From a virus: a stretch of DNA of 26,869 nt. The notes beneath the pieces were generated by a model that ran no database searches, was not told where the DNA came from, and saw only the letters and a list, made by a program, of their open reading frames with translations. The translations under genes were made by a program, and so were the position numbers. Below, piece by piece: positions 2 to 8,428 of the stretch (positions within the stretch are counted from its first letter, which is position 1; each line of letters begins with the position of its first letter). The stretch covers positions 1 to 26,869 of IMG/VR virus record IMGVR_UViG_3300043775_000685, one strand, 5' to 3'.

Positions 2-1273
2 GCACCAACAACGCAAAATTTTATCGAAAAAGGTCTATATCTTAACTCAGACCTTTACTCCATTATCAACTTAATCATTAACAAAGTCAGCACCGCGCCG
101 ATAGTTGTTTATGAGGTTAAGGACCAAAAGGCTTTAAATTACTACAAATCCATGAGCCGAAACTTTGAGAACTCAGGCGCTAAGTTTCAAGCCGAGAGAC
201 TCAAGACCAAAGCTTTGGAAGAGGTCCACATTCCTGAACTTGAAAAGCTATTTAAAAAGCCAAACGAGTTTCAAACTTGGGATAACCTTTTAAAAGAAAT
301 TGCTGCATTCCGTCTTATTACTGGCAACGCTTACATTTATGGCGCTAGACGTGGAGAGCAACCAAACGCTCCAATCATTGCATTGTATTCTTTGCCTGCA
401 CAGTACATGGAAATTATAAGCGGTGGTTTAAACCAGCCGATTAAGGAATATCGATTGACATACAATGGCTACGACAGAATCGACGCTGCAAACGTGGGCC
501 ACCTAAAAAATATTAATCTAAGTTACCAAGCTGGTACCGCTAATCACCTTTACGGCGCATCGCCTTTGCGTTCAGCAGTTCGCGACCTTACCACGTCAAA
601 CGACGGTAAGCAAGCGCTTTTATCTATGCTTCAAAACATGGGTGCAAGAGGTATCTTAACAGGGGACGGAACGGTTAACATTACCCGAGAGCAAGCGCAA
701 GGACTGAAGGAGGATTACGCGCACAATTACCAAGGCGCAACAAGGGCTGGCGACGTTATTATAACTCCAGCCAAACTTTCTTGGGTGCAGATGGGAATGA
801 ATGCAGTGGATATGTCAATACTTGACACCCAAAAGGTAATTTTGCGTTCTTTATGCCGCGTTTACGGCGTTGACGCAAAGCTTCTTGGCGATACTGAGGC
901 AAGTACTTTCAACAATACTGAAACTGCTTATAAGGCCCTAATTAATAACGTAGTTCGTCCTTTGCATATTGAAATCCGAGACGTGCTTAACAACTGGCTT
1001 TTGCCTTCTTATGGCAACAAAAATCTATTCCTAGATTTTGATTACATGGCTTATCCTGAAATGCAGGACGACATGGACAAACTTGTTGGACAATTGTCTC
1101 AGGCTTGGTGGCTAACTCCAAACGAAAAGCGTGCGGCCATGAATTACGGAGAATATCAAAATATTTTGATGGAACAGCCATTTATTCCGCAGGGATTAAT
1201 GACTTTGGCTGAGTTCTCAGCGCAACCAGTTGACGACCTAGAAAATTTGGGAGACTATGCCCAAACCAACTAA
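2..1273 (+). CDS. Phage portal protein, HK97-like (5' partial)
   Basis: The portal forms the dodecameric ring at the capsid vertex through which DNA enters and leaves and to which the neck attaches. The reading frame is open from the left edge of the window, so the gene starts upstream. An internal ATG at 152 is not the real start, because the upstream codons read as good portal sequence (LNSDLYSIINLIINK, then STAPIVVYEV). The body has the familiar portal features: LITGNAYIYGARRG, SLPAQYMEI, an LYGASPLRSA segment, and near the C-terminus a SILDTQKVILRSLCRVYGV helix with the following TEASTFNN segment. It overlaps the next gene by 17 nt, which suggests translational coupling. Position directly before a minor head protein, protease and capsid gene agrees. 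Terminase should lie left of the window. Confidence 0.93.
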   Translation, partial: APTTQNFIEKGLYLNSDLYSIINLIINKVSTAPIVVYEVKDQKALNYYKSMSRNFENSGAKFQAERLKTKALEEVHIPELEKLFKKPNEFQTWDNLLKEIAAFRLITGNAYIYGARRGEQPNAPIIALYSLPAQYMEIISGGLNQPIKEYRLTYNGYDRIDAANVGHLKNINLSYQAGTANHLYGASPLRSAVRDLTTSNDGKQALLSMLQNMGARGILTGDGTVNITREQAQGLKEDYAHNYQGATRAGDVIITPAKLSWVQMGMNAVDMSILDTQKVILRSLCRVYGVDAKLLGDTEASTFNNTETAYKALINNVVRPLHIEIRDVLNNWLLPSYGNKNLFLDFDYMAYPEMQDDMDKLVGQLSQAWWLTPNEKRAAMNYGEYQNILMEQPFIPQGLMTLAEFSAQPVDDLENLGDYAQTN

Positions 1274-2048
1274 AAAGGACCTAGCGCTTGCAAAGCAATT
1301 GGACGCATTGCAGAGACGTTACGAGCAGCGATACGAGAAGCAAATTTACACTGCTTTAAAAAAGCAAATGCAACCGTATTTGGATGCTATTAAAGAAGCG
1401 GACGCAAATATTAACCGATTTGATTTAATAACTCCAGCGCCATTGGCGGACGTATTGGAAAATCTTTTTGTCGTTGCTGGCACCGCTTATGCCGAGGCAA
1501 TGTATAACGCAATCCAGCCACCAACTAAAGCAACCAAAGAAGCTTTGCGAGCAGGCTGGCGCGACTTTATGCGTCTGTTTGCAATTAGAAATCTGCCTCA
1601 AACTTTAATTCAGATTAACGAGACCAGTCAAAAGATAATCCGAAATATTGTTTTAGGTGGATTAAGTGAGGGCCTTGGAACGCTTCAAATTGCTAGCATA
1701 ATTCAAGAAACAATTACGACTGTATTTACCAACCGAGCCAAGCTAATTGCTAGGACAGAAATGGCAATTGCTACCAACAACGCAGCAATGCAGTCGGCAG
1801 CAACTTCGGATTTTATGTATGAAAAGAAATGGATTCCAGCGACGGACAACAGAACAAGACCTGACCACGCTGCCATGCTTAATAAGCCTTGGATTCCGTT
1901 TGACGAAAACTTTATTGTAGGCGGTGACGAAATGAGGCAACCAGCAGACGGAACGCAAGGCGCTGGAGCGGACCAAATTTGTAATTGCCGCTGCAAAGTT
2001 GTTTTTAGAATTATGAGAGACGTTGACGGCTTACCAATTAGAAAATGA
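1257..2048 (+). CDS. Minor head protein, SPP1 gp7 / Mu gpF-like
   Basis: A 263-residue head morphogenesis protein of the SPP1 gp7/Mu gpF family. These are minor capsid proteins present in a few copies near the portal and needed for head assembly or DNA ejection. The N-terminal half is helical and charged. The C-terminal domain (roughly residues 150-256) carries the family signature: NRAKLIARTEMAIATNNA, then KKWIPATDNRTRPDHAAM, a tract ending in GGDEMRQPADG, and a terminal CNCRCKVVF cysteine cluster. The start overlaps the portal gene by 17 nt, and the stop overlaps the next start (ATGA at 2045-2048), so three genes are chained. Confidence 0.9.
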   Translation: MPKPTKKDLALAKQLDALQRRYEQRYEKQIYTALKKQMQPYLDAIKEADANINRFDLITPAPLADVLENLFVVAGTAYAEAMYNAIQPPTKATKEALRAGWRDFMRLFAIRNLPQTLIQINETSQKIIRNIVLGGLSEGLGTLQIASIIQETITTVFTNRAKLIARTEMAIATNNAAMQSAATSDFMYEKKWIPATDNRTRPDHAAMLNKPWIPFDENFIVGGDEMRQPADGTQGAGADQICNCRCKVVFRIMRDVDGLPIRK

Positions 2049-2623
2049 TTGCTTACGTTATTAACCTTGACCACCGAAAGGATAAATGGAGGTCGTCAAT
2101 GAATGAGTTGGCGCCGCATTTTAACCTTGAGCGAGTAAGCGCAATTAAACACGACTGGGGTTGGCTAGGACTTGCCAAAACATTTAAGCAGATATTTACT
2201 GAAGCAACTGGAGACGTTTTAATATTTGAGGACGACGCTACTTACCGAGGTTGGTCAACTAATTTAGACGAGGCAATTCAAGACCTGCCAGCTGACTGGG
2301 AAATGCTTATGCTGGGAGCCAATATAAAAGATTCAAGACTTGACAGGATAAGCAAGCGTTTGGTTCGGACTTACGGCTCGTGGACAACTCACGCAATTCT
2401 TTACTCTCACCGCTTTGCAAAAGAAATGGCAGAAATAGACTTGGACATACCAATTGACGAATATTTCAGGACACAAGTGCATCCTAAAGGTAATTCCTAT
2501 ATTTGCGTTCCGTTCCTATCTTTTCAGCGACCAAGTGAAAGCGATATTGAGGTAGGTTATAAAAACTATACAAGCCTATTCGAGGACAGTGAGGCAAAAG
2601 CTTTTCATTTTGTCAATCAATAA
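2045..2623 (+). CDS. Glycosyltransferase family 25-like protein
   Basis: A 192-residue protein resembling GT25 enzymes, which transfer a sugar (often galactose) from a nucleotide sugar to a lipo-oligosaccharide or protein acceptor. Visible family features are the opening VINLDHRKDKW (residues 5-15), a GWLGLAKTF segment, the metal/nucleotide-binding acidic motif FEDDA (EDD at 62-64), THAILYS (115-121), PIDEYF (136-141) and QRPSESDI near the end. It lacks a signal peptide or membrane helix, so it should act in the cytoplasm. The start codon overlaps the minor head protein stop by 4 nt (ATGA), meaning it is co-translated with head genes. The acceptor is unknown; a virion protein or a host surface glycan are both possible. 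Assignment to a glycosyltransferase is confident, the exact specificity is not. Confidence 0.85.
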   Translation: MIAYVINLDHRKDKWRSSMNELAPHFNLERVSAIKHDWGWLGLAKTFKQIFTEATGDVLIFEDDATYRGWSTNLDEAIQDLPADWEMLMLGANIKDSRLDRISKRLVRTYGSWTTHAILYSHRFAKEMAEIDLDIPIDEYFRTQVHPKGNSYICVPFLSFQRPSESDIEVGYKNYTSLFEDSEAKAFHFVNQ

Positions 2624-2636
2624 TTTTATAGGTTTG
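2610..2636 (+). promoter_or_regulatory. Predicted Bacteroidota promoter before the prohead protease/capsid genes
   Basis: TTG at 2610-2612 and TAGGTTTG at 2629-2636, separated by 16 nt, match the Bacteroidota sigma-ABfr consensus (TTG, about 17-20 nt, TAnnTTTG). The element overlaps the 3' end of the glycosyltransferase gene and lies about 40 nt before the protease start. It could boost capsid expression above that of the portal region. The spacer is at the short end. Confidence 0.5.
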
Positions 2637-2677
2637 CTTTTTTTTTTAACCCTTTTATTTTTACAAAAAAAGAGACC

Positions 2678-3391
2678 ATGATTTACAAAAATATAAGCCA
2701 AGGAATTATTGAGGACGTTGACGACGTTAAAGGACTAGTAACTGGTTACTTTTCCGCGTTTAACAATATTGATTCCGACGGCGACGTAATTGTATCAGGT
2801 GCTTACAAGAAAAGCGTTGCAGAAAATGGACCAATGGGACGCAATCGAATCATGCACCTGCTCCAGCATAACCCTTTGATGCCATTGGCTAAGCCTATGG
2901 AGTTAATGGAGGACGCAAAAGGCTTGCGCTTTACCTCTAAAATTACCGAGACTAGCTACGGCAAGGACGTAATAAAGCTTTATGCTGAGGGCGTTTTTAA
3001 CGAGCATTCAGTAGGCTTTGAAATTATCAAATCTGACAACAAAGCTGGATATAGAGAAATTAGAGAAATTAAACTTTGGGAGGGTTCAACTGTTACTTGG
3101 GGAGCCAATCCAAACACACCGATTGAATCAATGAAAAGCTGGGACCAGCCAAAAAGCGAGGAAATGATTGCAAAGTTCTGCGGCATACTTAGAAATGGCA
3201 ACCTTACCGACGAATCAATGATTCAGCTTGAAATCGGATTAAAGCAAATTCAAGAACATTTAAAGGCATTGCAAACAAAATCAGTCCAGTCCGTAGAATC
3301 CGACGCAAGTCAATTCACAAGCGAATTAGACCCGACCTTGGCAATGGCTTTGGAGTTCGAATTTATACCAAAACTTAAAAAATTTATTTAA
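2678..3391 (+). CDS. HK97-type prohead maturation protease (S78/U35)
   Basis: A 237-residue serine protease that is packaged into the prohead and cleaves the scaffold-like N-terminus of the capsid protein. The core spans residues 15-150: VTGYFSAFNNIDSDGDVI, then a strand with the catalytic histidine (LLQHN, H64), KGLRFTSKI, and the nucleophile strand NEHSVGFEI (H110, S111), followed by WEGSTVTWGANP. The C-terminal 80 residues are variable and helical, as usual for the family, where they target the enzyme into the prohead. It is preceded by a 54-nt gap with a predicted promoter and an A-rich leader. The capsid gene follows after 6 nt. Confidence 0.93.
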   Translation: MIYKNISQGIIEDVDDVKGLVTGYFSAFNNIDSDGDVIVSGAYKKSVAENGPMGRNRIMHLLQHNPLMPLAKPMELMEDAKGLRFTSKITETSYGKDVIKLYAEGVFNEHSVGFEIIKSDNKAGYREIREIKLWEGSTVTWGANPNTPIESMKSWDQPKSEEMIAKFCGILRNGNLTDESMIQLEIGLKQIQEHLKALQTKSVQSVESDASQFTSELDPTLAMALEFEFIPKLKKFI

Positions 3392-3397
3392 AACACA

Positions 3398-4600
3398 ATG
3401 GAAGCAATTAAATCACAATTGGATTCAGTACTTGCGAAATTGGAGTCAAACGAAGCTTTGATTTCAGACGTAAAGGCTATGAAAGAAGCTGGTGAGGAGT
3501 TCAGAAAGTCACTTTCTGCCGAGACCGCTAAATTGAACGCAAAAGCTGACGCTCTTCAGGCTCAGCTTGACGGAGTAGATGCAAGAACTCAGGCTGGCTT
3601 TGCTGGTGCTAAGAAAGGTGCAAATTTCTCTTCAGAATTGGAGAAAGCTTTGAGCGGCGAAACTTTCGCTAACTACAAGAGCGGAAACGCTAACAAAGTA
3701 AAGTTGGACCTTGAATTGAAAGGTTCTGACATGACCGTCGGAAACGCTTACACTGGCGAAGTTATCCCAGCAGACAGAGTTCCTGACTTAAAGTTTACTC
3801 CAAACAGAAAAGTAAACGTACGTCAGTTGTTGCCAGTTGGTCAAACTTCTAGCAACCTTATCCGTTTTGTACGTGAGTCAGCTTACGACAACGCTGCTGC
3901 ACCAACTGCTCAAGGTTCTGCAAAGCCTCAGTCCGATTTCGATTTGACCGCAGTAGACAGAAGCATCCGCACAATTCCTACTTTCATGCGTTTGACAAAA
4001 GAGATGTTGGATGATACCCCAGGTCTTATCGCTTACCTTTCTAGCCGTGCGCCTAGCAAATTGTTGAACGTAGAAGATACTCAACTTTTGTACGGAAGCG
4101 GTACAGGTCAAAACTTGCATGGTTTCGCAACTGACGGTTCTGCTTGGACTACTGTTAAATTCGGTACTCTAATCAACAGATTTGACGTTCTTGCTGCGGC
4201 GGTGGTTCAAACTACTAAGAACGAGTATGCACCAAATGCAATCATGATTAACCCTTCTGACTATTTGCAGTTGGTATCTGTTAAGGAAAGCACTGGTGGC
4301 TATATCATTCCTTCTTACGTTACAATGTCAGCTGGTCAAATGTTTATCATGGGCGTTCCAGTTTACGCAATCAATGGCGTTGTTGCTGGTGACTTCTTTG
4401 TAGGTGACTTTGCACTTGGTTCTCAATTGTTTGTTCGTCAGGGCATTACTCTTGAATTCTTTGAGCAGGATGCAGACAACGTAACTAAGAACTTTGTTAC
4501 TGTACGCGTTGAGGAGAGAATTGCTTTGGCAGTTTACACTACTCAATCAATTGTATACGGAACTTTTGCAGCTGCTTTGGCTAACGGTTCCGCAGTATAA
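3398..4600 (+). CDS. Major capsid protein, HK97 fold
   Basis: A 400-residue HK97-type major capsid protein. Residues 1 to about 75 form a charged coiled coil (delta domain) that acts as a built-in scaffold and is normally removed by the adjacent protease. The rest carries the usual features: DRVPDLKFTPNRKVNVRQLL, a RFVRES segment, TFMRLTKEMLDD, LLYGSGTGQNLHGF, INPSDYLQL, MFIMGVPVYAING and a C-terminal EERIALAVY strand. The gene lies between the protease and a clear terminator. Codon use is biased to C/T-ending forms such as AAC, GAC and CGT more than in its neighbours, consistent with very high expression. Confidence 0.95.
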   Translation: MEAIKSQLDSVLAKLESNEALISDVKAMKEAGEEFRKSLSAETAKLNAKADALQAQLDGVDARTQAGFAGAKKGANFSSELEKALSGETFANYKSGNANKVKLDLELKGSDMTVGNAYTGEVIPADRVPDLKFTPNRKVNVRQLLPVGQTSSNLIRFVRESAYDNAAAPTAQGSAKPQSDFDLTAVDRSIRTIPTFMRLTKEMLDDTPGLIAYLSSRAPSKLLNVEDTQLLYGSGTGQNLHGFATDGSAWTTVKFGTLINRFDVLAAAVVQTTKNEYAPNAIMINPSDYLQLVSVKESTGGYIIPSYVTMSAGQMFIMGVPVYAINGVVAGDFFVGDFALGSQLFVRQGITLEFFEQDADNVTKNFVTVRVEERIALAVYTTQSIVYGTFAAALANGSAV

Positions 4601-4625
4601 GTAAATAGGTGTTTGTTTAATGTGA

Positions 4626-4656
4626 AAAGGGTCGCCATTTATGGCGGCCTTTTTTT
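4626..4656 (+). terminator. Rho-independent terminator after the major capsid gene
   Basis: A hairpin with arms GGTCGCCA (4630-4637) and TGGCGGCC (4642-4649), one G-U pair, and loop TTTA is followed by seven T (4650-4656). It sits 26 nt after the capsid stop codon, so it should limit transcription into the glycosyltransferase and connector genes. Confidence 0.88.
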
Positions 4657-4703
4657 ATTTATCTAAAAATCAATACCTTTCAAGAAATCAACAATAAAAA
4701 AGC

Positions 4704-5690
4704 ATGAATATAGTTTTTTTTGTCCACGCTTGGGCAGGGACGCACAACTCAGGAGCCGAGTGGACCGTACAGCATTACGCCAAATATTTTAACCAAAGAG
4801 GTTGCAGTATTGAGGTAATTTTACCCGAAGGCCAAATTTATCCCGATGGTGAAAAGTTTGCGTTTATCAAGTTTATTACTGGCTATTATTCAAACGACTT
4901 TTTTCTAGCCTTACAAAATGCAAGCGTAATATTTACGCATTTGGATAATACAGGCGTTGCGATTAACTGGGCAAGGCAATTTAAAAAGCAATTGATTTTT
5001 TTAAGCCACAACGATTCAGATTATAGGAACGTCAGATTTAAAGCGCAAAATATTCACGTCGTTTATAACAATAAAGCAAACGAAAAGAATGTACAAAACG
5101 GCGCTTATCCAAACGCTTCCATTGTCTGCAAGCCTCCAATTTTTCCTGAGGACGTAAAATATAACCGAAAGCATGGGCAGTATATTACCCTAATTAACTG
5201 CAACGAAAACAAAGGTGGTCAGATATTAATTGAACTTGCCAAGCGATTGCCTAAGCGCAAATTTCTTGGCGTTCTTGGAAGCTACGGCGAGCAAATAATT
5301 GACGACACCTTAAAAAATTTAAAGTACGTGGCCCAAACGCCTGACGTTCATTTAATTTATGGCAAAACAAATATTGTGCTTGTGCCTTCATTTTATGAGT
5401 CTTATGGACGTGTAGGCTTAGAGGCGGCTATTAACAGGCTGCCAGTAATATGCACTCCAACGGACGGATTGAAGGAATGTCTTGGACCTGCTGGCTTGTA
5501 TTTTGACCGTGACGACCTTGACGGAATGGCTGCTAAAATTGAGGAGTTGATGAGCGACGAAATTCTTTACGACTTCCACCAAAACATTATGCGCAACCTT
5601 GCCGAGGAGCGTCTTAAATACCAAGACCAAGAGTTAGAAAGATTCTTTAATTTTATTGTTGACAAAGCAAAGAAACCATACAATGAGTGA
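4704..5690 (+). CDS. Glycosyltransferase family 4-like (GT-B) protein
   Basis: A 328-residue retaining GT-B glycosyltransferase resembling GT4. The N-terminal acceptor domain starts MNIVFFVHAW with NSGAEW (15-20), matching the GG/SGAE loop of the family. The C-terminal donor domain has INCNENKGG (164-172), LGSYGE (191-196) and the signature PSFYESYGRVGLEAA, where E232 and E240 form the E-x7-E motif. No membrane segment or signal is seen. It lies after the capsid terminator and before the connector gene, which it overlaps by 8 nt. It is a second, unrelated glycosyltransferase inside the head module. Substrate and acceptor are unknown; modification of a virion protein is the most economical guess from position, but it is only inference. 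Confidence 0.87.
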   Translation: MNIVFFVHAWAGTHNSGAEWTVQHYAKYFNQRGCSIEVILPEGQIYPDGEKFAFIKFITGYYSNDFFLALQNASVIFTHLDNTGVAINWARQFKKQLIFLSHNDSDYRNVRFKAQNIHVVYNNKANEKNVQNGAYPNASIVCKPPIFPEDVKYNRKHGQYITLINCNENKGGQILIELAKRLPKRKFLGVLGSYGEQIIDDTLKNLKYVAQTPDVHLIYGKTNIVLVPSFYESYGRVGLEAAINRLPVICTPTDGLKECLGPAGLYFDRDDLDGMAAKIEELMSDEILYDFHQNIMRNLAEERLKYQDQELERFFNFIVDKAKKPYNE

Positions 5691-6273
5691 CCTATTATAT
5701 ACACCAAGCAACCTTTCATTTACTGGCTATGCAGTTCAGTTTGCAGACGTTGCACCAGTTACCGAGCCAGTTACATTGGCAGAGGCTAAAGAGTACGCAA
5801 GAATTGACGGCAGCGCTGAGGACTCTTTAATTACCAGCCTTATAAAAGTTTCTCGCCTACATTGCGAGGCGTTTATTGGCAAGGCAATTATCCGCAAGAC
5901 TGTCACAATTGATTCTTTTTCTTTTCCTTACCAGTGGCAGTTGCCTTACGGTCCTTTGGTTTCTGCAAGCGACATAACTAAAGTCGTGACAATTGACCAA
6001 AATAACGTGGAAACTTCTTTAAATTACCAAGTAAACATTGGCTTGTTTCCAAAAATTGTAATTACCAGCGCAAACCAATCATTTAAATTTAAAATGGTTT
6101 ATACTGCTGGATTTACAACGGTTCCCGAGGATATTAAGCTTGCCATTAAAATGATGGTAAATACAATGTACGAGCGTCGTGAAGACTTTAGCGACCTGCA
6201 GGCGATTCCTTCACCTTTGGGAGTTAAAGCGTTATTAATGCCTTATAAAACTTACAACTGGTTTGGTGCATGA
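5683..6273 (+). CDS. Head-tail connector protein (gp6-like)
   Basis: A 196-residue adaptor of the HK97 gp6/SPP1 gp15 type that forms a ring below the portal. Recognisable are the EPVTLAEAKEYARIDGS opening, the EDSLITSLIKVSRLHCEAFIGKAI helix pair, a strand-rich middle (QLPYGPLVSAS), and a C-terminal VPEDIKLAIKMMVNTMYERRED helix. The ATG at 5683 is preferred over an upstream TTG at 5656 because it overlaps the previous stop by only 8 nt and MSDLLYTP is a natural start. It is followed by overlapping head-closure and neck genes. Confidence 0.85.
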   Translation: MSDLLYTPSNLSFTGYAVQFADVAPVTEPVTLAEAKEYARIDGSAEDSLITSLIKVSRLHCEAFIGKAIIRKTVTIDSFSFPYQWQLPYGPLVSASDITKVVTIDQNNVETSLNYQVNIGLFPKIVITSANQSFKFKMVYTAGFTTVPEDIKLAIKMMVNTMYERREDFSDLQAIPSPLGVKALLMPYKTYNWFGA

Positions 6274-6611
6274 GGACTAATAAAGAACTTAAAGCTGGCG
6301 ATTTACGGGAACGCATTCAGTTTCTTAATCCAACGCTATTTGCGGACGGCTTTGGAGGTTACTACTCTTCGATGGGCGTGACTTATACGTGCTGGGCAAA
6401 AGTTACTAACCTGACAGGAGCGCGACAGAATAGCGAGGACCAAATGGTTATAAAAAACGCTTGGGAAATCATTATTCGAGATAATCCTTTGGTGACTATT
6501 ACCAAGTCGATGCACATTGTTTTTGATGGCAGAACGCTAATTATTGACAATATTATTGACGTGCAGGAATACGACAGAATGATTAAGTTTATTGCTAAAG
6601 AAAGGGACTAA
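6270..6611 (+). CDS. Head-tail adaptor / head closure protein (SPP1 gp16-like)
   Basis: A 113-residue small beta-barrel head closure protein. It has the usual start, AGDLRERIQFL, a central TYTCWAKVTNLTGARQNSEDQ segment, then WEIIIRDNP, and the final DGRTLIIDNIIDVQEYDRMIKFIAKE strand set. Proteins of this family cap the connector ring and keep DNA in the filled head. The start overlaps the preceding stop (ATGA, 6270-6273), and the next gene follows with no gap. Confidence 0.85.
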   Translation: MRTNKELKAGDLRERIQFLNPTLFADGFGGYYSSMGVTYTCWAKVTNLTGARQNSEDQMVIKNAWEIIIRDNPLVTITKSMHIVFDGRTLIIDNIIDVQEYDRMIKFIAKERD

Positions 6612-7055: not shown

Positions 7056-7477
7056 GAAATATTAAAAAGTTTGTTCGCAAGGCTTACTGGTCTGCTTTAA
7101 ACGGGACTATTACCTACAAAGGTGCGCCAGTGCTTTGCTACGACACCTTTGCTCCTGACGAGGCTAGTTTTCCTTATATTCTTATCACAAATCAGACTCA
7201 GGAGGATGACAAGGATAACCAAGAGTATAACTATATCACCACCATTACTTTGGACGTTGTAACGGCAGGAATTGCGCCTTACGGACGCCTCGACGCGGAC
7301 TCAATTGCGGACTCTATTTTGCAAATTGTTTGCCTTTATCCTGAGAACTATTTAGCGTTAGAAGTTGGCAAAATTGTAACGGCTAAATTGGTCCAGCAGA
7401 CTAGCCTTTCAAGCATTACCGACACAAATATTGTGCATCGGGAAATTATGACAATTGAAAACTGGATTGATGGCTAA
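7052..7477 (+). CDS. Tail terminator / tail completion protein
   Basis: A 141-residue protein with the order and composition of tail terminators (DUF3168/gpU-like): an N-terminal helix, PYILITNQTQEDDKD, a strand region YITTITLDVVT, helix DADSIADSILQIV, and a C-terminal HREIMTIENWIDG strand. Members form a hexamer that caps the assembled tail tube and joins it to the head. The assignment rests on position between the gp10-like and tail-tube genes and on secondary-structure pattern more than a strong motif. Confidence 0.7.
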   Translation: MRNIKKFVRKAYWSALNGTITYKGAPVLCYDTFAPDEASFPYILITNQTQEDDKDNQEYNYITTITLDVVTAGIAPYGRLDADSIADSILQIVCLYPENYLALEVGKIVTAKLVQQTSLSSITDTNIVHREIMTIENWIDG

Positions 7478-7934
7478 GGTTAATGGCTCGGTTTTATTTG
7501 TTTCAGTTGGACTTGACAAAATAGCCAAGTCAACGGCTTACAATTTATCTGCTGAAATGAGCCAGCTGGACAAAATAAGCAACGAGTCAGGATATTTTGC
7601 AGACCACATTTCCAAGCTTGGCTCTTGGTCCTTATCCAGCGACTCACTTTACATTCAAGACGGATTTTCTTTTGGTAATTTATACACCGCTTACGTTAAT
7701 CGCGAGCGCGTTTATTTATCGGTTGGCCAAGACGACAGTCTAACCTTTATCGGACTTGCAACAATTGAATCTTTGAGCCAATCGGGACCAATGGAAGAGG
7801 CTGCAACAATTTCAGCAACTTTTAAAGGTGTTGGCGGACTTTATCCGACAATTTTACCAGCCGAGCGCTTTATTGTTGACGAACTATTTGAGATTATAAT
7901 TGACCAAGACGGAAACTATTTGGTCTATACTTAA
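7470..7934 (+). CDS. Tail tube-like protein, paralogue 1 (with C-terminal extension)
   Basis: A 154-residue protein clearly related to the next gene product. Shared features in the same order: a G-x-V/L-x-V-x-V start, YNLSAEMSQLDKI, then FADHISKLGSWSLSSD, a glycine-tyrosine-threonine (GNLYTAYV) segment, LTFIGLATIESLSQSG, MEEAATISATFKGVGGL. The last 30 or so residues (ILPAERFIVDELFEII and on) have no counterpart in the neighbour. The ATG at 7470 is preferred to a TTG at 7455, and overlaps the terminator gene by 8 nt. This looks like a tail tube protein or a specialised tube subunit; which of the two paralogues forms the bulk tube cannot be read from sequence alone. Confidence 0.7.
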   Translation: MAKVNGSVLFVSVGLDKIAKSTAYNLSAEMSQLDKISNESGYFADHISKLGSWSLSSDSLYIQDGFSFGNLYTAYVNRERVYLSVGQDDSLTFIGLATIESLSQSGPMEEAATISATFKGVGGLYPTILPAERFIVDELFEIIIDQDGNYLVYT

Positions 7935-8005: not shown

Positions 8006-8428
8006 ATGGCAACTGCTGGCAAATTTAATGGCACCCTTTTGAACGTTTACCTTAACAACGTAATGATTGGATGCGCTACCTCTTCTGAACTTTCTGTAAA
8101 CGTTGACCTTGCAGACGCAACTTGCAAAGACGACGGCGGCTGGGCTGACCACATTGCAGGTCTTCGCGACTGGTCTGTTTCAACTGACGGATTGGTTGCA
8201 TTTGACGACACAAACAACATTGGCGACATTTACACGCTTTTGAGCGGTCGCACAGTTGTTGCTCTAAAATTTACAACTAACGTAACTGGAGACCTAGTAT
8301 TCTACGGAAATGCATCCGTTGCATCAATCAGCGTTTCAGCTGAAATGGAGGCTGCGGTAACTTACTCAGTAGAATTTACTGGAAAAGGTCCTTTACTAAA
8401 GGCGACCGTAGTACCAGCATCAACTTAA
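8006..8428 (+). CDS. Major tail (tube) protein, paralogue 2
   Basis: A 140-residue tail tube protein: GTLLNVYLNNVMIGCATSSE at the start, VDLADATCKDDGGWADHI, GLRDWSVSTDGLVAFDD, GDIYTLLSGRTVVAL, then the ASVASISVSAEMEAAVTYSV strand pair and an FTGKGPL ending, as in TP901-1/lambda V-type tube proteins. It has its own 71-nt leader with a motif shared with the protease/capsid leader, and codon use like the capsid gene, suggesting it is the abundant tube subunit. It is paralogous to the gene just upstream. Confidence 0.82.
   Translation: MATAGKFNGTLLNVYLNNVMIGCATSSELSVNVDLADATCKDDGGWADHIAGLRDWSVSTDGLVAFDDTNNIGDIYTLLSGRTVVALKFTTNVTGDLVFYGNASVASISVSAEMEAAVTYSVEFTGKGPLLKATVVPAST

Follow-up and report, generated by a model that had tools for sequence, protein, structure and literature searches.

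In the excerpts of the literature drawn on here, proven glycosylation of phage virions has so far been confined to a few mycobacteriophages (PMC12363180, PMC12619734, PMC11256854, PMC11600133). Both the capsid and the tail of one of them, Che8, are proven to be glycosylated (Freeman et al. 2023, as cited in these four papers); in the same excerpts its gp110 is described as essential for capsid glycosylation (PMC12363180), the glycans are placed on the C-termini of the capsid and tail tube (PMC12619734), and mycobacteriophage capsid glycans are said to bear on antibody recognition of phages (PMC12363180, PMC11600133). We find that gp110 matches the Pfam GT25 model (1.2e-7) and that the Che8 capsid and tail proteins end in KTGS and SDGS, respectively. 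Che8 resembles the locus described here in its phage-encoded enzymes, in the GT25-family enzyme gp110, and in its GS-ended capsid and tail proteins, but its enzymes are a GT25, a GT2, and a GT2-methyltransferase with no GT4, and their genes lie near the right genome end, far from the capsid gene.

A second counterpart is the Streptomyces phage TurkishDelight, the sole match to our GT4 enzyme among 50,697 phage records and likewise the only match to two of its distant homologues. Its gp20, annotated as a glycosyltransferase, is a GT4 homologue with 26% identity to ours; within the head module its gene follows that for the major capsid protein, which ends in SPGSTS. Unlike our enzyme, gp20 consists of two fused GT4 domains, and two other genes separate it from the capsid gene. 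Neither a capsid-GT4 pair nor a Ser/Thr tail rule is described in the titles and abstract openings of the open papers that our searches listed, a scope outside which most subscription papers fall.

Two glycosyltransferase genes in the head module

We analyzed a freshwater phage sequence of 26,869 nt (IMG/VR virus record IMGVR_UViG_3300043775_000685, positions 1 to 26,869; hereafter the window). Its head module (Table 1), which also includes a portal gene (PF04860, 2e-50), contains two intact glycosyltransferase genes on the plus strand. As the sequence-only reading had proposed, the GT25-like gene is start-stop coupled to the minor head gene, exactly so, through an ATGA at 2045–2048, and the GT4 gene lies between the capsid terminator and the first connector gene. 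The capsid stop codon is followed by 103 nt, including a terminator hairpin, before the GT4 start, and the GT4 stop codon (5688–5690) overlaps the adaptor start, so that GT4 is coupled downstream too. A hairpin plus T-run is present in 10/10 capsid/GT4 intergenic regions inspected, with differing stem sequences. The closest capsids among named phages are ~32% identical and belong to phages with mixed hosts; the Bacteroidota host named in the sequence-only reading is putative.

Table 1. Features of the head and tail region of the window
Feature	Position	Strand	Evidence
Mu F-like minor head protein	1257..2048	+	PF04233 3e-14; stop codon shared with GT25-like start
GT25-like glycosyltransferase, 192 aa, GT-A type (by predicted fold)	2045..2623	+	COLGALT1 fold match, PHROG_24091, EDD 62-64
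Prohead protease S78	2678..3391	+	PF04586 7e-22
HK97-type major capsid protein	3398..4600	+	PF05065 1e-35
Capsid C-terminal tail ALANGSAV codons, candidate glycan acceptor	4574..4597	+	GS in 76/77 lineage ends
Intrinsic terminator, capsid/GT4 gap	about 4625..4656	+	hairpin plus T-run
GT4-family glycosyltransferase, 328 aa, GT-B fold (predicted)	4704..5690	+	PF13692 3.7e-12; PHROG_26352 3e-58
Head-tail adaptor, ATG at 5683	5683..6273	+	PF05135 5e-8
First copy of the major tail protein, ending in ...NYLVYT	7470..7934	+	PHROG_1407 7e-12
Second copy of the major tail protein, ending in ...VVPAST; alternative to the capsid tail as candidate acceptor	8006..8428	+	PHROG_1407 3e-27

We propose that the two enzymes probably glycosylate virion proteins: they would be made late, together with the head proteins, and would attach sugars to those of the virion. 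The sequence-only reading had suggested this function from gene placement, and it now has comparative backing in the fixed position of the genes, the Ser/Thr capsid ends that accompany GT4, and the Che8 precedent; the enzyme activities and the virion-protein acceptor are what we infer. Phage glycosyltransferases are also known to modify DNA bases, according to an excerpt of one paper (PMC12619734), but PHROG scans of part of the window ORFs recognized no base-modification genes and both genes are placed in the head module, and we regard a role in glycosylating phage DNA as extremely improbable.

Family and fold of the two enzymes

The product of the downstream gene is, by family and fold, a canonical GT4 enzyme, predicted to transfer sugar by a retaining mechanism. 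It matches PF13692 (47.2 bits versus a cut-off of 27) and PF00534 (45.5 bits versus 26.4), its structure model is confident (pLDDT 90.6), and E232 and E240, invariant across 47 GT4 sequences, fit the E-x7-E motif of the family. The model matches MshA, BshA, and PglA, all of GT-B fold, with query-normalised TM scores of mostly 0.7–0.8; these enzymes differ from the window GT4 in sequence (13–18% identity) and in using small-molecule or lipid-linked acceptors, PglA among them.

The GT25-like label stands by predicted fold and motif and finds no support from the Pfam GT25 model: PF01755 gave no match to the 192-aa protein, which is therefore named GT25-like, and PF00535 alone appeared, under its cut-off (0.0088). 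The AlphaFold model (mean pLDDT 89.6) has human COLGALT1, a GT25 enzyme, as its best PDB fold match (4e-10), COLGALT1 is the sole PDB match to the family sequence profile (2.6e-4), PHROG_24091 matches at 3.6e-6, and E62, D63, and D64 are invariant across 21 GT25-like sequences. COLGALT1, a procollagen galactosyltransferase, glycosylates a protein, as proposed here for the window enzyme; it and Mimivirus R655, the other of the best fold matches, differ in being eukaryotic or giant-virus enzymes with 15–17% identity, and the COLGALT1 acceptor is hydroxylysine (PDB title). Kinship to Che8 gp110 is weak (window profile, 1.9e-5 among 10 proteins; hhalign, E 5e-4, probability 32%).

GT4 enzymes often use lipid-linked or small acceptors, as do the nearest fold matches here, which would suit enzymes that remodel glycans on the surface of the infected cell and so prevent superinfection or the loss of phages to debris, with their late-operon position incidental. 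Phage glycosyltransferases that change host serotype are indeed known, again from an excerpt (PMC12619734). However, neither enzyme has a strongly hydrophobic segment, and no tyrosine integrase (PF00589) was found in 18 long relatives, which makes lysogenic conversion unlikely. Both results weaken the superinfection alternative raised in the sequence-only reading and led us to reject a lysogenic-conversion glycosyltransferase cassette, which consists of membrane-embedded enzymes in a temperate phage. A host-surface role also leaves unexplained the fixed capsid-side position in unrelated phages and the Ser/Thr capsid ends (below), and we consider it unlikely.

Conservation and selection in the window lineage

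We compared 174 loci of the window lineage, which form 93 groups without a common 1,500-base stretch. The minor head gene adjoins GT25 in 131/137 loci, the capsid gene adjoins GT4 within 200 nt in 145/146, and GT4 adjoins the adaptor gene in 138/138; GT4 was found in every locus spanning its site, with zero loci lacking it. Both glycosyltransferase genes are under purifying selection. Among eight head-module genes tested, GT4 has the lowest dN/dS (0.034, compared with 0.057 for the portal, 0.093 for GT25, and 0.099 for the capsid). Because they are conserved, fixed in place, and under purifying selection, the two ORFs are not chance reading frames; on the dN/dS result we also rejected a simple moron. 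Displacement of these genes away from head genes in relatives, named beforehand as the observation that would count against virion glycosylation, was not found in this lineage.

The genes could instead be accessory cargo at insertion-tolerant boundaries, with no head-specific role. Some relatives carry extra modules inserted at the same gene boundaries, and one contig (L075) has cleanly lost GT25, which is thus not always needed. That GT4 is both universal at its site and the most constrained gene tested argues against cargo, which we regard as very unlikely.

GT4 genes beside capsid genes in distant phages

The GT4 profile of the window lineage had no match in sequenced genomes; the comparison also covered distant homologues. 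Among the best 80 loci by similarity (50 virus records searched; loci of one contig can recur), a PF05065 capsid was present in 42/50 records and without a match in 8/50, and a capsid gene lay on the same strand within 400 nt upstream of GT4 in 38/50, as it does in the window (103 nt). GT4 lies 2.4 kb from the capsid gene in L201, 6.3 kb in L220, and 11 kb in L206. In sequenced genomes, 60 such loci were found and 56 examined; a capsid lay upstream in 43/56, within 400 nt in 39/56, and 13/56 had no upstream capsid match. Most distant homologues (38/50 and 39/56) are thus also found beside head genes rather than away from them. By gene neighborhood, the window enzyme belongs to a phage GT4 clade that appears tied to the major capsid gene across many unrelated phages; this recurrence points to viruses that add sugars to their own virions.

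Distant GT25-like genes show a different setting: queries limited to window-like and TurkishDelight-like head genes found none nearby at 16 loci. The one exception with a distant GT25-like gene among head genes is a phage region in a Saprospiraceae MAG (L514), in the order MuF, protease, capsid (ending VIS), ORF, GT25-like, ..., GT11, GT4, adaptor, where the GT25-like gene and GT4 both lie between capsid and adaptor. GT2 matches occurred in just 2/50 GT4-negative records, in both cases one gene after a GS-ended capsid; the GT2 of L345 has no detectable kinship to Che8 gp110.

Capsid and tail protein C-termini as candidate acceptors

Capsids encoded beside GT4 share a C-terminal feature. In the first distant set, among the best 80 by similarity, 40/40 end in Ser or Thr, as do 38/39 capsids within 400 nt of GT4 in sequenced genomes; among other ORFs of 39 first-set loci the fraction is 76/552, and few downstream genes are so ended. 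We also classed the best 80 capsid loci by similarity: 17 have GT4 and 55 lack it, 7 have flanks too short for a call, and 1 has a truncated capsid. Ser/Thr ends characterize 56/56 GT4-positive versus 15/70 GT4-negative capsids. The other capsid-end counts do not account for relatedness; here, the kinship-aware comparison yielded four independent pairs (sign test, P = 0.125), too few independent changes to reach significance. None of the named control capsids (10 plus 9, hand-picked from match lists; prophiT49-3 and prophiGD43A-4 are near relatives) is Ser/Thr-ended.

In the window lineage the rule holds only as an internal GS. The window capsid ends GSAV, with Val last, and lineage capsids (in forms GSAV, GSAS, and GSGN) carry GS in 76/77 and a terminal Ser/Thr in 8/77, while 27/27 11b-type capsids lack the tail. 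Judged by mycobacteriophage-type C-termini, the window tail proteins fit and the capsid GS is followed by two residues. The first major tail protein ends in Thr in 54/54 lineage sequences and the second in ST in 49/49 true copies (5 further rows, being matches to the first copy, were left out, as were the adaptor ends, which came from a wrong reading frame).

These ends suggest where GT4 would act: on a hydroxyl residue in the short, presumably flexible capsid tail (ALANGSAV), and/or on the tail tube proteins (VVPAST and LVYT), with the GT25-like enzyme most likely extending the same glycan or starting it, in an order of steps that we infer. For the window we tentatively favor the capsid tail, which may be the glycosylation site. 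A glycan carried by the tail tube, or by some virion protein other than the capsid, is a sub-case of virion glycosylation and accords with the invariant Thr ends of both tail proteins beside the variable capsid ends, and with the SDGS end of the Che8 tail protein, but in distant phages it is the GT4-adjacent capsid that carries the invariant Ser/Thr end and few downstream genes do likewise, and we judge this sub-case somewhat unlikely.

With similar reserve, we suggest more broadly that the capsid-side GT4 clade could be vertically kept in phages of at least two phyla (Actinomycetota and Bacteroidota) and could O-glycosylate a terminal Ser/Thr capsid tail, placing hundreds of sugars on each head, and that this tail could be a portable acceptor tag that arises in capsid families with a linked glycosyltransferase (GT4, GT2, or GT25). 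If so, a capsid-linked clade and a predicted acceptor tail would make virion glycosylation a common trait readable from sequence, directly testable in cultivable Streptomyces prophages, and the glycans would matter for antibody recognition of phages and for particle behavior in water. Finally, the GT4 reading frames of some loci start inside the capsid gene.

The head module carries two glycosyltransferase genes coupled to structural genes

The 26,869-base IMG/VR virus record is a siphophage fragment that starts at, or within, the portal gene (see table). A sequence-only reading had placed two glycosyltransferase genes in the head module, and this is borne out because both overlap structural genes, GT25-like at its start and GT4 at its end; the downstream coupling of GT4 to the adaptor gene is an addition to that reading. 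The name GT25 calls for caution, as Pfam's GT25 model gives no assignment for the protein. We keep the label since COLGALT1 is both the best fold match (E 4e-10) and the sole match of the family profile among PDB sequences (2.6e-4), and since an EDD motif is invariant in 21 sequences. Viewed by eye, one ORF outside the head module resembles a PAS sensor domain and has hydrophobic stretches; its neighbors are the endolysin gene and, on the other side, a small ORF that looks membrane-like. The only PHROG match of the PAS-like ORF is to an unknown family (0.0024).

Features of the window (positions in nucleotides)
Feature	Position	Remarks
Portal	152-1273	First gene of head module
Mu F minor head	1257-2048	Stop overlapped by GT25-like start
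GT25-like	2045-2623	Between minor head and protease
S78 protease	2678-3391	Between GT25-like and capsid
HK97 capsid	3398-4600	C-terminus ALANGSAV
Terminator	about 4625-4656	Between capsid and GT4
GT4	4704-5690	End overlaps adaptor start
Adaptor	5683-6273	Head closure and tail genes come after
Major-tail-protein-like, first	7470-7934	Tandem with second
Major-tail-protein-like, second	8006-8428	
PAS-like ORF	17761-18513	

Gene order and GT4 sequence are conserved across the lineage

IMG/VR scans for relatives (the best 80 of 132 for GT4, 73 for GT25-like and the best 80 of 133 for capsid) gave 174 lineage loci, in 93 groups without any common 1,500-base stretch. Adjacency is nearly fixed: minor head with GT25-like in 131/137 loci carrying both, GT25-like with protease in 145/145, capsid with GT4 in 145/146 (the remaining locus has a partial capsid match only) and GT4 with adaptor in 138/138. 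One locus has no GT25-like gene, its protease directly following minor head, and GT4 is present in every lineage locus that has both capsid and adaptor. Relative to the window, median identities are 96% (GT4), 91% (capsid), 84% (GT25-like) and 54% (adaptor). Median dN/dS is lowest at GT4 (0.034 vs 0.099 for capsid), and constraint on GT4 is therefore stronger than on the capsid; other medians are 0.057 (portal), 0.086 (protease), 0.089 (minor head), 0.093 (GT25-like), 0.099 (neck) and 0.105 (head closure).

The adaptor is the most variable head gene (by median identity), sitting between the highly conserved GT4 and moderately conserved neighbors. A hairpin and T-run are kept at the capsid-GT4 terminator in 10/10 intergenic regions folded, with varying stem sequences. 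The six minor head-GT25-like exceptions come from four contigs and have a longer minor head gene, as read in L159, and a 67-residue ORF before GT25-like. In L159 (4895-6445), the Mu F protein has a C-terminal extension of ~250 residues containing HEFAH, a zinc-protease-like motif, and the 67-residue ORF contains Cys; the same gap and ORF occur in the three other contigs (L019/L092/L141, L094 and L168).

Capsid-GT4 pairs and Ser/Thr capsid ends recur in distant phages

TurkishDelight, a Streptomyces phage, is the only named phage with a homologue of the window GT4 (26% identity), again in the head module, between the major capsid and major tail/adaptor genes. Scanning with its C-terminal GT4 domain returned at least 360 relatives, of which the best 80 were kept (~25–38% identical to the window GT4). 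Among 50 of these records searched, 42 contain the capsid family, always on the same strand; the capsid ends <400 nt upstream of GT4 in 38 (mostly 36–191 nt) and at 558 nt, 2.4 kb, 6.3 kb and 11 kb in the others. The eight records without a PF05065 match include TurkishDelight-like ones. A second, independent set comprised 60 loci in sequenced genomes, chiefly those of Streptomyces and its relatives; leaving out four archaeal partial matches, the capsid profile lies upstream of GT4 in 43/56, and within 400 nt in 39. Judged from these sequences, the pair evidently predates the window lineage.

Capsids beside GT4 end in Ser or Thr in 40/40 first-set and 38/39 second-set cases (the exception ends GSA), against a background of 76/552 other ORFs in 39 first-set loci; typical ends are GTPSGS, NPSGS, AGGSS, EQPGS, TAAS and TSLT. 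In a capsid-led scan (best 80 loci, eight of which could not be judged for GT4 state), such ends occur in 17/17 capsids with GT4 vs 15/55 without (Fisher 4e-8, relatedness ignored). Adding 39 of the 40 first-set capsids and 15 named phages gives 56/56 vs 15/70, a pool in which some contigs occur twice so that rows are not all distinct. GT4 state changes five times on the capsid tree, and four independent pairs are supported. Across these, the tail tracks GT4 in a mean of 3.6 pairs and runs opposite to it in none; with only four pairs, the sign test (p 0.125) cannot reach significance. In alignments, GT4-adjacent capsids run a few residues, ending in Ser, past the common end of GT4-free relatives. 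Alignments of a second capsid family likewise show Ser/Thr ends where Bbif-1, ReT1v-2, Muddy, JacoRen57 and Morrigan end otherwise.

Seven GT4-free capsids also end in GS. In two of their loci (L345 and L361), the adaptor gene is followed closely by one for a GT2 enzyme, and these two are the only PF00535 matches among 50 GT4-free records. L361 carries two consecutive GT2-like ORFs there (5545-6392; the second by eye), the first 62% identical to that of L345. A short contig filed under Algoriphagus aestuarii, perhaps a stray, has a capsid end matching those of L212 and L214.

Phage virion glycosylation is already known; our open-literature search met no description of a GT4 clade that keeps its place next to the capsid gene across phages of several hosts and is accompanied by Ser/Thr capsid tails.

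Candidate acceptors and a proposed route

One paper names the glycosylated proteins of mycobacteriophage Che8 and an essential enzyme, gp110 (PMC12363180), and another locates glycans of this kind at the C-termini of capsid and tail tube (PMC12619734). In Che8, the capsid ends KTGS and the tail protein SDGS. Pfam assigns gp110 to GT25 (1.2e-7), and the window GT25-like profile matches gp110 weakly. The window capsid runs ~7 residues past 11b-type capsids, 27/27 of which lack the GS-containing tail; the GS pair is retained in 76/77 lineage ends, but Ser/Thr is the last residue in just 8/77. The tandem tail proteins end in Thr in every relative read (54/54 for the first, 49/49 true copies of the second). 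Because the capsid keeps GS but rarely ends in Ser/Thr and the tail proteins invariantly end in Thr, capsid tail and tail tube are, singly or together, candidate acceptors in this lineage.

The sequences show the families and folds of the two enzymes, their placement and constraint, and the statistical association. Both enzymes probably serve virion glycosylation, as the sequence-only reading had proposed; that they instead modify the host surface seems unlikely. For virion glycosylation we infer activity, sugar donor, acceptor and order of steps as follows: late transcription of the head operon would yield capsid, tail and both soluble enzymes, and GT4 and the GT25-like enzyme, taking their nucleotide sugars from the host, would modify C-terminal tails either ahead of assembly or while it proceeds.

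A distantly related phage provides a second case of GT25-like and GT4 in one head module. This phage region of a Saprospiraceae MAG (L514/L520) starts with a Mu F-type end, followed by a protease gene and a capsid gene whose product terminates in VIS. A small ORF and a GT25-like gene (28% identity to the window's, 1e-17) come next, then several ORFs that Pfam does not name, and after these GT11, GT4 (35% identity over 280 residues) and adaptor (PF05135) genes. By eye, the interval from GT25-like to GT4 (L514:1129-4995) holds glycosyltransferase-, HNH-type- and methyltransferase-like ORFs, the four scanned giving no Pfam match; together with the GT11 gene, this set is possibly a longer virion glycan pathway.
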